Assembly: GCF_010119195.1 (NCBI RefSeq)
Contig: NZ_WRXL01000007.1
Location: 62,001-126,000, forward strand
Direction of reading: 5' to 3'
DNA length: 64,000 bases
Source of the DNA: Haloarcula salina
GTDB taxonomy: Archaea; Halobacteriota; Halobacteria; Halobacteriales; Haloarculaceae
Every line of letters starts with the position of its first letter. Position 1 is the first letter of the stretch. Shown one piece after another: positions 12,951 to 50,771 of the stretch. The notes below the pieces were generated by a model, which was not told the origin of the DNA, did not search any database, and was given only the letters and a program-made list of their open reading frames with translations. The position numbers were made by a program, and so were the translations under genes.

Positions 12951-15128
12951 TCAGCCGCGAAAGCCGAGCAACCGAAGGCCGTTCAGCGAGACGATGACCG
13001 TCGAGCCCTCGTGACCGATCACTGCGAGCGGCAGCGGGATGCCCCGGAGGAGGATCGTGCCGACCATGAGTGCAATCGCACCGAACGCGATGGCGAGATT
13101 GACGGTGAGCGTCCGGCGGGTCCTCCGTCCGAGGCCGAGAACGTAGGGAATCTTGCTGAGGTCGTCGCCCATCAGGACCACGTCGGCAGTATCGAGGGCA
13201 ACGTCGGTCCCCGCGCCGCCCATCGCGATGCCGAGGGTCGCTGTGGCGAGGGCTGGCGCGTCGTTGACGCCGTCACCGACCATCGCGACGTTCTCGTGTC
13301 GTTCGACGAGGTCCTCGATGGTCGCCACTTTCTCCTCCGGCAGCAGTTCCGCCTGGACTTCGTCGATGCCGACCTCGTCGGCGATGCGCTGTGCGACGCG
13401 CTCGTTGTCGCCGGTCAGCATGACGATGTGTTCCACGCCGAGCGAGCGGAGGTCGTCGATCATCTCGGTCGCTTCGGGGCGAACGGTGTCGGTGAACGCG
13501 AGCCACCCCAGCACGGTGACGTCGCCGCCGCGCTCTCGGGCGACGAGGACGCTCGTTTTCCCCTCCGCCTCGATCGTTTTGAGGCGATCGAGACCGGGTT
13601 CGAGACCGTCGATCGCCACGTCTCCGAGAACGCTCTGGAAGTAACTCCGATTCCCGATGTGGAGCGTGCTGCCCTCGACGTCCGCGTGGACCCCTTTCCC
13701 GGCGACCGACTGAAACCGCTCCGTGTCGGGAACGTCGAGCGACCGGCTCTCTGCCGCCCGCACGGTCGCCCGAGCGAGGTGGTGCTCGGAGCGGGCCTGC
13801 ACCGCCGCCGCGATGGAGAGCAGGCCGTCTTCTGTCTGCGTGTCTGCCGTCTCGTCACTGACGACCACGTCGGTCAGCTGTGTGTCGCCCTGCGTGAGCG
13901 TCCCGGTCTTGTCGAAGGCGACAGCGTCGATGCGCGCCGCGGTCTCGACGTGTTCGCCGCCCTTGAACAGCACGCCTTGCCGCCCGCCGGAGGCGATCGC
14001 CGAGAGGACCGCCGCGGGCGTGGAGATGATGACCGCACACGGCGACGCGGCGACCATGAGCGTCATCGCCCGGTAGAACGTCCCCGTGAACTCGCTCCCG
14101 AGTGCGAGCGGGATCGCGATGGCCGCGACCGTCAGTCCGAACACGCCGAGGACGTACGGTTGTTCGAGACGGTCGATGAGCCGCTGTGTCGGGGCCTTCT
14201 CGCTCTGGGCTTCTTCGACCATGGTGATGAGGCGGCTGATCGCCGACTCGTGGGCCTGCCGCGTGACTTCGATTTCGAGGCTCCCGCTCTCGTTGATCGT
14301 CCCCCCGAACACCTCGTCGCCGAGGTCCTTTGGCACGGGGACGGACTCCCCGGTGAGCGAGGCCTGATCGACCGTTCCCTCACCGGACGCGACGACGCCA
14401 TCGAGCGGAATCTTGTCGCCCGGACGGACGACGAACACGTCACCGACGGCGACATCGTCGATGGGAACCGTGACCTCCTCACCGTCACGCAGAACCTGCG
14501 CTTCGTCCGGCCGCATCTCGACGAGCGACTTGATCGCTCGGCGCGAGCGGCCGATCGCGTAGTGTTGGAGCGTGTTCGACAGCGAGAACAGGAAGAGGAG
14601 CATCGCACCCTCGAACGGGGCCCCGATCGAGAGCGCGCCGAGCGCGGCGACGATCATCAACAGGTCGATGTCGACCGCGCGGTGGCGGAGCGTCTCGACG
14701 GCCCCCTTGAGGCCGTACCACCCGCCGAAGACGTACGCGACGCCGTAGCCGGCCCACATCAGGAGCGGCGGGCCGTCGAGCCATCCCGTCGCCAAGCCGG
14801 TCACCATGCCGACCAGCGTCAGTCCGACGAACACTGCCTCCCGCCTGAGTTCCGAGCGGGAGGTCACCTCGTCGGAATCAGTGTCGCGCTCGTCCCGGAT
14901 CGAGACGTCACGGTCGCGGACCGCGTCTCGAAGCCGTTCCTCTGAGGTGACACTCTCGTCGTAGGTGATCCGAGCGCTCCCCGTCCGGAACGAGACGTCG
15001 ACGTCGTGGACGCCGGGCGTATCACTGAGGTGTCGTTCGAGTGCGCGCGCTCCCGCGTCGCCGCGCCCGCCTCGTCGTTCGATCTGGACGGTACACGTCG
15101 ACAGCGGGGGTGATTCAGTAACGGTCAC
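12951..15128 (-). CDS. P1B-4-type heavy-metal-transporting ATPase (SPC/HEGST)
   Basis: A 725-aa P-type ATPase that exports a transition metal across the cytoplasmic membrane. It has the actuator TGES, the phosphorylated Asp406 in DKTGTL, the HP dipeptide position occupied by HH (SEHHLA), TGDNE and GDGVNDAP. The membrane metal site is SPC (362-364), and the last helix carries HEGST (706-710). SPC plus HEG is the signature of subclass P1B-4 (CoaT/CtpD/PfeT type), which moves Co, Fe, Ni or Zn. The N-terminal ~75 residues form an HMA-like fold but the CxxC metal site is lost. This is the distal gene of a same-strand metal island from 18650. Confidence 0.92.
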   Translation of the reverse strand: MTVTESPPLSTCTVQIERRGGRGDAGARALERHLSDTPGVHDVDVSFRTGSARITYDESVTSEERLRDAVRDRDVSIRDERDTDSDEVTSRSELRREAVFVGLTLVGMVTGLATGWLDGPPLLMWAGYGVAYVFGGWYGLKGAVETLRHRAVDIDLLMIVAALGALSIGAPFEGAMLLFLFSLSNTLQHYAIGRSRRAIKSLVEMRPDEAQVLRDGEEVTVPIDDVAVGDVFVVRPGDKIPLDGVVASGEGTVDQASLTGESVPVPKDLGDEVFGGTINESGSLEIEVTRQAHESAISRLITMVEEAQSEKAPTQRLIDRLEQPYVLGVFGLTVAAIAIPLALGSEFTGTFYRAMTLMVAASPCAVIISTPAAVLSAIASGGRQGVLFKGGEHVETAARIDAVAFDKTGTLTQGDTQLTDVVVSDETADTQTEDGLLSIAAAVQARSEHHLARATVRAAESRSLDVPDTERFQSVAGKGVHADVEGSTLHIGNRSYFQSVLGDVAIDGLEPGLDRLKTIEAEGKTSVLVARERGGDVTVLGWLAFTDTVRPEATEMIDDLRSLGVEHIVMLTGDNERVAQRIADEVGIDEVQAELLPEEKVATIEDLVERHENVAMVGDGVNDAPALATATLGIAMGGAGTDVALDTADVVLMGDDLSKIPYVLGLGRRTRRTLTVNLAIAFGAIALMVGTILLRGIPLPLAVIGHEGSTVIVSLNGLRLLGFRG

Positions 15129-15845: not shown

Positions 15846-16487
15846 TCACTCCGCCTCCGTAATCGTGAACAGGTCGTCGTCGGTCAAGACCGCTCGAACC
15901 CGCCCGTGCCATGCCGCCGCGAAGGCCGTCCGCTCCTCGTCCGTCGCGGTCCCCTCGATCAGTGCGTCCAGATACTGTGAAGCGGGCCCGGCACCGGGGA
16001 CGTTCCCGACGTGGTAGGTGACTCGAACCGCGTCGTCCGTGTCCGTACGCTCGAACGTGAACGTGGGGTCGGCTTCGTCCGCACGGTCGAAGTGGAGGTG
16101 GTGTCTTCGGTCGCCGTAGCCGCCGGCGAGTCCGCCGAAGCCGTCCTCTTCGGCAGCACCCGTGACGTACGAGACGACCCGTGACATCACGCCGTAGGTC
16201 GCGTCGGACTTCGGCCCGCCGGCGGTCACCTCGATGTCGCCTCGAACGGGGCACTCGTCCGGGTAGAGTTCGGCGAGCGCGAGCTGGGTGAGCCGAAACG
16301 CGCCCGCCGCCGTCGGACAGGAGTGGCCGGCCGCCTTCACGACGTCCGCGTAGCTGATACCGAACGGCTCGCCCGGGCCCAGGACGGTCAGCGCCTCGGC
16401 GACCGGGTCGCGGATGCGGATCGGTTCGACGGTCTCGTATTCGACGTTCCAGTTCGTCAGGTCGCGCTGATTGGTCGTTTCGGTCAT
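15846..16487 (-). CDS. FmdE-like conserved protein with GHSCPT motif (213 aa)
   Basis: A soluble protein with the segment AGHSCPTAAGAF (His55, Cys57), which resembles the His/Cys metal site of the FmdE family (named after a gene next to formylmethanofuran dehydrogenase). A second cluster GDRRHHLHFDRAD (about residues 125-137) offers more metal ligands. The C-terminal half looks like an alpha/beta domain. It begins 33 bp after the CPG-type P1B ATPase stop codon on the same strand, so the two genes are very likely co-transcribed. That suggests metal binding or sensing. The family assignment is from memory of the motif, and no enzymatic activity is implied. Confidence 0.65.
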   Translation of the reverse strand: MTETTNQRDLTNWNVEYETVEPIRIRDPVAEALTVLGPGEPFGISYADVVKAAGHSCPTAAGAFRLTQLALAELYPDECPVRGDIEVTAGGPKSDATYGVMSRVVSYVTGAAEEDGFGGLAGGYGDRRHHLHFDRADEADPTFTFERTDTDDAVRVTYHVGNVPGAGPASQYLDALIEGTATDEERTAFAAAWHGRVRAVLTDDDLFTITEAE

Positions 16488-16520: not shown

Positions 16521-18416
16521 CTACCACCGTCGCAGGCGCATTCCGTTGAGGATGACCAGCAGGACGCTGCCCTCGTGGACGAGCATTCCGCCGGCGAGGT
16601 GGACGTTACTTGTCAATACTCCCGCCAAGAGGACGGTCACCGTGAGGACCGCGATGCCGACGTTCTGGAGGACGTTCCGGCGCGTCGCCTTGCTCAGTCC
16701 GACCGCGTCCGGGATTCGTTCGAGGTCGTCGGCCATCAGCGCCATGTCCGCCGTCTCGATGGCGGTGTCGGTGCCCGCAGCGCCCATGGCGATCCCCACG
16801 TCGGCGGTCGCCAGCGAGGGCGCGTCGTTGATGCCGTCACCGACCATCGCCACGACGGAGCCCTCCTCGCGGAACGCCTCGATGGCGGCCTGCTTGTCCT
16901 CCGGCAGCAGTTCGGCTCGGTAGTCGTCGATGCCGACCCGCTCGGCGACGGCGCGGGCGGTCCGCTCGTTGTCGCCGGTAAGCATCACCGTCCGCACGCC
17001 CGCGTCCCTTAACGCCCGCACGACTCGGGGGGCGGTCTCGCGGAGTTCGTCGCGGAGCGCGATCACGCCGACGACGGTCCCGTCGCGGACGACGTGGACC
17101 GCCGTCTCGCCGGCTTCTTCGTGCTCACGGACGGACGCGGCGACCGGCTCGGGAACGGCGACGGCGCGCTCGTCGAGCAGCGCTCGGTTGCCGACGGCGA
17201 TCTCCCGGCCGTCGTAGCGGGCGACGACGCCCTTCCCGGCGAGAACTTCGAAGTCGTCCGGGTCCGGGACGCGGGCCGACCCGACGACGGGCGCTCCGTG
17301 GGCAGCGACGCTCTCCGGGACGTCGGCCTCTCGTGCCGCGTCGAGGATAGCGTCCGCGAGGTGGTGCTCGCTCTTCTTCTCGGCGATGCCGGCCAGGCGG
17401 AGCGTCTTCTCGGCGTCGCATTCGAATCCCTGGACGCTGGCAACGGTGGTCTCGCCCTTCGTGAGGGTCCCGGTCTTGTCGAACGCGACGAGGTCGATCC
17501 GCCCGGCGCGTTCGAGATGCTCGCCGCCCTTCATCAGGACGCCGTTGCGGGCGGCGTTCCCGATAGCCGAGACGACGCTGACCGGCGGGCCGATGACGAG
17601 CGCACCCGGACAGCCGATGACGAGCAGCGTGAGCGCCATGAGCACGTCACGGGTGACGACGAACGCACCGACGGCGAGCAGGACGATGGCGGGCGTGTAG
17701 TAGCGGGCGAAGCGGTCGATGAACTGCTCGGTCGGGGACTGGGCTTCCTGTGCCGCCTCGACACGGCGGATAATGCGCTGGAGCGTCGTGTCCGACCCTG
17801 TACCCGTCGCCACGACGTCGAGTGCCCCTTCTCGGTTCACCGTCCCCGCGAACACGTCGTCGCCGGCGGTCTTGTGGACGGGTACACTCTCGCCGGTGAC
17901 CGGTGCCTGGTTGACGGCGCTCTCGCCGGCGACGACTTCGCCGTCGACCGGAATCTTCGCCCCCGGCTTGACGATCACTGTCTCGCCCTCCTCGACCTCT
18001 CGAGCAGGAACTTCGACATCGTTGCCGTCGCGGCGGACGAGCGCCGTGGCGGGCGTCAGTTCGAGCAGTTCCTGCAGAGCGGTGCGCGTCTTGCGCATCG
18101 TCCGCCCCTCCAGGTAGCTCCCGAGACTGAACAGGAAGACGACCGCCGCGGCCTCCCAGTACTCGCCGATGGCGACGGCACCGACGGCAGCCAGAGTCAC
18201 GAGCGTCTTGATGCCGATCGTCCAGCTCCGGAGCTCGTAGTAGGCGTGCTTCGCGACGTCGTAGCCGCCGATGACGGCCGCGAAGACGAGGACGAGCGCG
18301 CTCGCGGTGTCGTATCCGGTGGCGTAGCCGAGGCTCCAACCCCCGGCGTACAGGAGGCCACTCGTCGCGGTGACGACGGCCGTGCGGTGCTTGCGGTAGT
18401 ACTCTCGGACGGTCAT
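16521..18416 (-). CDS. P1B-type metal ATPase with unusual CPG membrane motif
   Basis: A heavy-metal P-type ATPase of about 631 aa. It shows TGES, phosphorylated Asp313 in DKTGTLTKG, SEHH, TGDNE and GDGINDAP. The ion-site motif in the key membrane helix reads CPG (269-271, context VIGCPGALVIG) instead of CPC, SPC, CPH or TPC, and the last helix has HEGSV. There is no N-terminal HMA domain; a separate HMA protein is encoded directly upstream. The ATG at 18416 is chosen, but a GTG at 18434 abuts the upstream TAA and could serve by translational coupling. The ion is not predictable from the known subclass rules. It sits upstream of the FmdE-like gene and divergent from a Cys/His winged-helix regulator. 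Confidence 0.88.
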   Translation of the reverse strand: MTVREYYRKHRTAVVTATSGLLYAGGWSLGYATGYDTASALVLVFAAVIGGYDVAKHAYYELRSWTIGIKTLVTLAAVGAVAIGEYWEAAAVVFLFSLGSYLEGRTMRKTRTALQELLELTPATALVRRDGNDVEVPAREVEEGETVIVKPGAKIPVDGEVVAGESAVNQAPVTGESVPVHKTAGDDVFAGTVNREGALDVVATGTGSDTTLQRIIRRVEAAQEAQSPTEQFIDRFARYYTPAIVLLAVGAFVVTRDVLMALTLLVIGCPGALVIGPPVSVVSAIGNAARNGVLMKGGEHLERAGRIDLVAFDKTGTLTKGETTVASVQGFECDAEKTLRLAGIAEKKSEHHLADAILDAAREADVPESVAAHGAPVVGSARVPDPDDFEVLAGKGVVARYDGREIAVGNRALLDERAVAVPEPVAASVREHEEAGETAVHVVRDGTVVGVIALRDELRETAPRVVRALRDAGVRTVMLTGDNERTARAVAERVGIDDYRAELLPEDKQAAIEAFREEGSVVAMVGDGINDAPSLATADVGIAMGAAGTDTAIETADMALMADDLERIPDAVGLSKATRRNVLQNVGIAVLTVTVLLAGVLTSNVHLAGGMLVHEGSVLLVILNGMRLRRW

Positions 18417-18434
18417 GAACGTGGACTCTCCCAC

Positions 18435-18650
18435 TTACGTCACCTGGGGTGTGTACCCCTGGCTCTCGATGGCGGACTCGAAGTCGGCCGGGTCGGCCAC
18501 GGCCGGGTCGTACTCGATTTCGACGCGGCCGGTCGTGTAGTGGACCGCCACGTGCTCGACTCCGTCCGCCCGTCTCAGCACACGCTCGACGGTGCTCGCA
18601 CAGGTCGGACAGTCGAAGTCCCTGACGCGGAACTGGGTGCGTTCGGTCAT
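18435..18650 (-). CDS. Small HMA-domain metallochaperone
   Basis: A 71-aa single heavy-metal-associated domain with the metal site DCPTC (Cys14, Cys17). An Asp before the first Cys is seen in Zn/Cd/Pb-type HMA domains such as ZntA, while Cu domains usually have Met-x-Cys. Its stop codon touches the alternative GTG start of the CPG ATPase gene, so the pair looks translationally coupled, like a detached N-terminal domain of that pump. A Shine-Dalgarno-like GAGGAG lies 8 nt before the ATG at 18650. The start there, rather than 7 codons upstream, fits that site. Confidence 0.9.
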   Translation of the reverse strand: MTERTQFRVRDFDCPTCASTVERVLRRADGVEHVAVHYTTGRVEIEYDPAVADPADFESAIESQGYTPQVT

Positions 18651-18686
18651 CGTGGATCTCCTCACGCTCACCTACGCCCCGTGTCC

Positions 18687-18762
18687 GAATAAGTATTAAT
18701 AAAATGATATATTTGGGTCGTGGCCGGAGCCGTTGTACCGGTCCAACGACCCGTTTGAACGG
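18687..18762. promoter_or_regulatory. Divergent promoter with two palindromic putative operators
   Basis: The 159-bp region between the HMA gene and the regulator holds an AT-rich core (TTATTAATACTTATT on the minus strand, about 18687-18703). It also holds two dyads: CGTTGTACCGGTCCAACG at 18731-18748 (one mismatched pair) and CCGTTTGAACGG at 18751-18762 (arms CCGTT/AACGG). Their position between divergent regulator and effector genes is the usual site for autoregulated metal sensors. Confidence 0.6.
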
Positions 18763-18809: not shown

Positions 18810-19349
18810 ATGAGTGCCTTCGAATCCGACGTTGAACTGGCTGACATCGTCGTCCGGGACACCGACGTGTCGAGCGCGGTCGACGAACCCGTTCGAGCGA
18901 TGATTCTCGACATGCTCGCGGAAGAGGCGATGACGGTCGAGGCGGTACACGAGGAACTCGGCGGCCGCGGTTTCGAGCGGACGGTGAACACGATCCGCCA
19001 CCACATTAACGAGCTTCGTAATGCCGGCCTCGTCGAAGTCGAGCGGATGGAGGAGCGCCGCGGTGGGACGCTGAAGTTCTATCGGGCGAACACCATCGTC
19101 CTCTCCTACTCGGTTCCGGACGGGTCCCGGGAGAAAGTCGCCGAGATGGCCGATTGGATGAGTCCTCGACTGGAGCCTCTTATCGGGGAACTGCGGGAGA
19201 GATACGAGGCAGACCTCACACGGATCGCCGACCAGATGGCGCCGTGCGAACACTGCACCACTCAGAAGTTCGAGACGTATCTCCTCCTCACCGTCCTCCG
19301 TCGTGGATTCGTCGATGCGTACGGAGGTCCGGAGCGCGGCGATCAGTGA
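18810..19349 (+). CDS. Winged-helix transcriptional regulator with CEHC motif (ArsR-like)
   Basis: A 179-aa protein with an ArsR-type winged helix at about residues 22-95 (VRAMILDMLAEEAMTVEAV, recognition helix around ERTVNTIRHHINELRNAGLV). The C-terminal helical part carries Cys146-Glu-His-Cys149, a likely metal-binding site. It is transcribed away from the HMA/CPG-ATPase genes across two palindromes, so it is most simply the metal-responsive regulator of that operon and of itself. Whether it represses or activates cannot be seen. Confidence 0.85.
   Translation: MSAFESDVELADIVVRDTDVSSAVDEPVRAMILDMLAEEAMTVEAVHEELGGRGFERTVNTIRHHINELRNAGLVEVERMEERRGGTLKFYRANTIVLSYSVPDGSREKVAEMADWMSPRLEPLIGELRERYEADLTRIADQMAPCEHCTTQKFETYLLLTVLRRGFVDAYGGPERGDQ

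Positions 19350-48188: not shown

Positions 48189-50771
<2,583 letters not shown>

Follow-up and report, generated by a model that had tools for sequence, protein, structure and literature searches.

A P1B-type ATPase of Haloarcula salina carrying a Cys-Pro-Gly (CPG) triplet in membrane helix M4 is probably (at a probability of roughly 0.6) an efflux pump that belongs to a separate branch of CPG proteins and would receive its ion from a separate HMA-domain protein, hold it at a site made of Cys269, His614 and Ser617, and export a divalent transition metal (Fe2+, or else Zn2+, Cd2+ or Co2+) and not Cu+. The cargo of P1B-ATPases is usually predicted from the M4 triplet, and among the haloarchaeal and Bacillota genomes that were sampled, 15–19% encode a member of the CPG branch.

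The ATPase gene and its catalytic motifs

The gene lies in the window, that is, the whole stretch of 64,000 nucleotides that was analysed. An alternative GTG start at 18434 would lengthen the product to 637 amino acids, and the protein has no N-terminal metal-binding domain. Its main features are the following:

16521–18416, minus strand: P1B-type ATPase with CPG in M4, an open frame of 631 amino acids with its ATG at 18416
17604–17612 (read 17612–17604), minus strand: the CPG motif, residues C269, P270 and G271, codons TGT CCG GGT
16563–16577 (read 16577–16563), minus strand: HEGSV in the last helix (M6), residues H614, E615, G616, S617 and V618

Codons and translation confirm what an earlier note on this DNA had read, namely CPG at residues 269–271 and HEGSV in the last helix. 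The same note held that all catalytic motifs are intact. This stands for TGES (174), DKTGT (313), TGD (480) and GDGIND (526), but not for the His-Pro of the N-domain, which is replaced by His-His (SEHH, residues 349–352); the first His is retained, and SEHH is also found in the haloarchaeal SPC paralogue. The protein scores 584 bits against NCBIfam TIGR01525 (heavy-metal P-type ATPase; cut-off 346) and carries TGES, DKTGT and GDGxND, which places it among the P1B-type (heavy metal) ATPases. Its AlphaFold model (mean pLDDT 83, pTM 0.74) has P1B structures as its best structural matches and shows the M4 helix interrupted at residues 268–270.

The window also encodes a P1B-4-like paralogue (12951–15128, minus strand; SPC, HEGST), whose N-terminal HMA-like domain is without its CxxC pair, and a P1B-2-like paralogue (48189–50771, minus strand) with CPC, DAG in M6 and two N-terminal HMA domains (MDCPSC and MDCASC). 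Together with the CPG pump this makes three P1B pumps in the window, each of another kind. Elsewhere, a P1B-like protein of Halorubrum (locus L050, 9–2726, minus strand) reads TPW at the position of the metal triplet in M4.

Conservation and spread of the CPG triplet

A genome scan with the ATPase returned 75 loci, mostly haloarchaeal and 68–80% identical, and every full haloarchaeal relative found contains LLVIGCPG[AT]LVIGPPVS. Cys and Gly at residue 271 differ by a single base (TGT against GGT), and an assembly error, or a gene that is a decaying and inactive copy, might be supposed. We give this reading almost no weight: some 70 haloarchaeal loci conserve Gly271, as do relatives in other phyla, and the catalytic motifs are undamaged. 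The sequencing error at 17604–17612 that the earlier note had named as a possible refutation is ruled out, as is chance, because all full haloarchaeal relatives and those from several bacterial phyla keep the Gly. CPG is thus a real, conserved feature and the pump, judged by its motifs, is apparently active.

Bacterial relatives (41–54% identity) occur both on plasmids and in genomes. They include proteins from Cellulomonas, Microbacterium and Corynebacterium; from Chelativorans, Paracoccus and Rhizobium; from Latilactobacillus, Ligilactobacillus, Enterococcus and Staphylococcus; and from Limnochordales and Trueperaceae, so that Actinomycetota, Alphaproteobacteria and Deinococcota are represented besides haloarchaea and Bacillota. 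A DNA pattern encoding CPG-A-L-V-I, run on samples of 98 haloarchaeal and 299 Bacillota genomes, matched 19 of the former and 46 of the latter. A gene unique to one genome is ruled out by these haloarchaeal, Bacillota and other bacterial relatives, and any suggestion that CPG is peculiar to H. salina gives way to a widespread group, whose members are named in databases simply as 'heavy metal' or 'cation-translocating' ATPases.

Place among the P1B subclasses

All 25 CPG proteins in a 56-row tree form one group (SH-aLRT 99), and a 38-row tree with 18 CPG rows recovers their clade at 80/88. In the latter tree P1B-2 and P1B-4, including E. coli ZntA and sCoaT, form a clade at 100/99 without any CPG protein, and CopA, CupF and a candidate Nia (TPC) are placed further out. 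Forcing sister groups gave AU p-values of 0.078 for CPG with P1B-4, 0.057 for CPG with the ZntA type and 0.042 for CPG with Nia. The Nia reference is a TPC pump of S. meliloti pSymA with a long C-terminal extension (locus L119, 17293–19785, plus strand), assigned from motif and replicon in a record that carries no annotation. The phylogeny proposed in the earlier note, as a check for placement inside a characterised subclass, therefore puts the CPG proteins outside the references used (P1B-1, P1B-2, P1B-4 and P1B-5). As judged from these alignments they appear to be a branch of their own with respect to these four subclasses, with sister-group tests that are weak.

The subclass motifs were compared as well. 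The P1B-1 signature (CPC in M4, YN in M5, MxxSS in M6) is absent. From the P1B-2 set (CPC, an M5 Lys and DxG in M6), the C, K and D are replaced by G271, V593 and H614 in 18 of 18 aligned CPG rows. The SPC of P1B-4 reads CPG, and its HEGxT reads HEGSV in this protein, with only H and S invariant across the clade; the TPC of P1B-5 also reads CPG, and the proteins do not group with Nia.

It could be argued that the CPG branch is a P1B-4 variant, derived from or sister to the SPC/HEGST pumps, which would move the same ions (Co2+, Zn2+, Cd2+, Fe2+) through the same site, the triplet having its Cys in first instead of third place. HEGSV (HxxS) in M6 and a Glu in M2 are common to both, sCoaT, a P1B-4 pump, is the nearest PDB sequence, and the forced sister group is not rejected. 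We nevertheless regard this as unlikely, given that the tree joins P1B-4 with P1B-2 and leaves CPG outside, that the Glu and Gly of HEG vary among CPG proteins, and that the M3–M4 loop is shorter in the CPG pump.

Two further subgroups, P1B-6 and P1B-7, were reportedly defined by Smith et al. in 2014. In one review P1B-6 is paired with Fe(II) and P1B-7 is entered as unknown; CPG could be either. The literature searched, a comparison that does not extend to the paper defining these two subgroups, yielded no description of a CPG motif in P1B pumps, and the branch may be a variant that is already numbered. ZccE, a P1B pump presented as 'novel', carries SPC; a search for CzcP in the C. metallidurans pMOL30 stretch found only a P1B-1 pump there; and a review on metal genes in Halobacterium (YvgX, ZntA), consulted for a characterised haloarchaeal orthologue, gives no sequence to match and hence no ion that could be transferred. 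Tentatively, the CPG pumps might constitute a separate and functionally uncharacterised P1B subclass of archaea and bacteria, with a single-thiol site (the CPG Cys plus His-x-x-Ser), a dedicated CPxC HMA carrier, an ion preference beyond the CPC/SPC/TPC rules and a tie to iron or redox stress.

The predicted membrane metal site

We collected 109 distinct CPG proteins, 99 of them with a readable C-terminus, and H-x-x-S is present in the last helix of all 99. At the second place of the motif 87 proteins have Glu, 6 have Gln and 6 have Ile; within HEGSV, the E and the G are thus not fixed across the clade. Invariant are C269-P-G271 in M4, H614 and S617 in M6, and E88 in M2. Work on the P1B-4 pump sCoaT assigns its ion site to SPC and HEGxT: the Glu of the latter motif is proposed to take up and let go of the ion, its His acts as an internal counter-ion, and the exit is lined by an M2 Glu (eLife 73124).

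By alignment, the metal site of the CPG pump is predicted to consist of C269, H614 and S617, and on the best reading it would resemble the single-cysteine site of P1B-4. It may also differ from that site, as 12 of the 99 proteins have Gln or Ile at the position of E615, the equivalent of the Glu proposed to bind metal in sCoaT. Such a site would reveal metal selection by one Cys, one His and one Ser.

The haloarchaeal cassette

The pump gene is embedded in a small cluster:

18435–18671, minus strand: stand-alone HMA-domain protein with DFDCPTCA, 78-amino-acid ORF
15846–16487, minus strand: FmdE-like protein, 213 amino acids, beginning 33 bases after the ATPase, with conserved GHSCP, H159 and H194
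18810–19349, plus strand: divergent ArsR-like winged-helix regulator, 179 amino acids, with a conserved C-terminal PCEHC (CxHC tail)
18731–18748: near-perfect palindrome CGTTGTACCGGTCCAACG between the regulator and the HMA gene, a candidate operator

Comparison with orthologues suggests that the HMA protein starts at an ATG near 18650; its gene ends 18 bases before the ATG of the ATPase. The order of divergent ArsR-like regulator, HMA protein, ATPase and FmdE-like protein is conserved in haloarchaea, at locus counts that are non-independent, many being near-identical plasmid copies; Haloarcula marismortui, for example, carries the cassette on pNG600. The regulator was found at 63 loci (C146, H148 and C149 of its PCEHC tail each in 61 of the 63), and the HMA protein, with DF[DS]CP[TS]CA, at 64. 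This bears out the pairing with a separate DCPTC HMA protein that the earlier note had put forward, since the HMA gene adjoins the ATPase at these 64 loci. The FmdE-like protein, a constant neighbour of the CPG pump in haloarchaea, occurs at 62 loci with H55 and C57 of GHSCP invariant, and gave no useful match in the PDB. No clear conserved operator emerged from the aligned intergenic regions, since these come mostly from plasmid copies that hardly differ.

Bacterial neighbourhoods

In Bacillota the HMA partner adjoins the ATPase at 29 of 40 loci, and it is also present at plasmid loci; the bacterial motif is CP[ST]C or CPDC. Regulators of the Crp/Fnr cluster, mostly with Cys-rich N-termini, lie nearby at 20 of the 40 loci, and 15 encode a protein related to RIC, a family that repairs iron-sulfur clusters (TIGR03652; E about 1e-13, yet far below the family's cut-off). 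This RIC-related protein (loci L158–L197) has about 100 amino acids, lies directly upstream of the pumps and aligns with just a section of the RIC profile. Dps or ferritin-like genes are found near CPG pumps in Lactobacillales and Staphylococcus, and the plasmid loci have genes for Dps, ferritin-like, cupin, oxidoreductase and hexameric tyrosine-coordinated heme proteins as neighbours.

These neighbours fit iron or redox stress. Many metals damage Fe-S clusters, and for this reason the link to Fe2+ through Fnr, RIC and Dps is indirect. A multicopper oxidase at one Staphylococcus locus and cadmium-resistance genes at one Enterococcus locus make the context suggestive of several metals.

Probable cargo and proposed transport

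The HMA partner and the Staphylococcus oxidase bear on another reading, in which the protein would, in spite of its CPG, transport copper(I) and be served by a CopZ-like chaperone. CxxC HMA proteins often carry Cu+, and here one adjoins the ATPase at most loci. Yet the pump lacks the second CPC cysteine and, from the P1B-1 signature in M5 and M6, the Tyr-Asn and the Met, which argues against Cu+ as cargo; in the trees it lies far away from CopA and CupF and also from the P1B-1 pumps of its own genome; and an Asp precedes the first Cys of the haloarchaeal HMA protein, as in E. coli ZntA. Copper transport is accordingly improbable in our view.

For the CPG-branch pump with its HMA carrier, the cargo is most likely divalent. 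By analogy with ZntA, the DCxxC of the haloarchaeal HMA protein fits Zn, Cd or Pb; the bacterial neighbours, in another direction, fit iron or redox stress. Fe2+ and the group of Zn2+, Cd2+ and Pb2+ are both possible at similar, rather low odds, Co2+ or Ni2+ is doubtful, and the remainder falls to Cu+, Hg2+ or others. Nothing points to a metal complex, which had also been suggested as cargo.

Mechanistically, the HMA protein would carry the ion in trans to the pump, where C269, H614 and S617 would hold it in the membrane, assisted by E615 where present. Phosphorylation by ATP at D313 would then power outward release past E88, as in P1B-4 pumps, while the CxHC tail of the ArsR-like regulator would sense the metal and so derepress the operon. 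The conserved HMA chaperone and the regulators make the ion directly testable.

Comparison with known systems

Among P1B-5 pumps, Nia has a short M3–M4 loop like the CPG pump, and both offer hints of iron: a RIC-like neighbour at the Bacillota CPG loci, and in the candidate Nia a C-terminal tail that we take to be hemerythrin-like. Nia differs in having TPC where the CPG pump has CPG, and the two are not grouped in the tree, their forced sister group being weakly rejected.

The P1B-2 pumps, represented by E. coli ZntA and the paralogue at 48189–50771, likewise have a CP in M4, and their HMA domains carry a DCxxC like that of the haloarchaeal HMA partner. Where these pumps complete CPC with a second Cys and have Lys in M5 and Asp in M6, the CPG pump has Gly, Val and His, and its HMA is a separate protein.

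P1B-4 pumps include, according to the literature, the Fe2+ pumps PmtA, PfeT and FrvA. sCoaT (7QBZ), the closest PDB sequence, shares with the CPG pump the P1B fold, the His and Ser of HEGxT in M6 and the M2 Glu. P1B-4 departs from it in its SPC and in its separate branch of the tree, the Glu and Gly of HEG are not conserved among CPG proteins, and the external HMA partner is a feature of the CPG pump that sets it apart from P1B-4.
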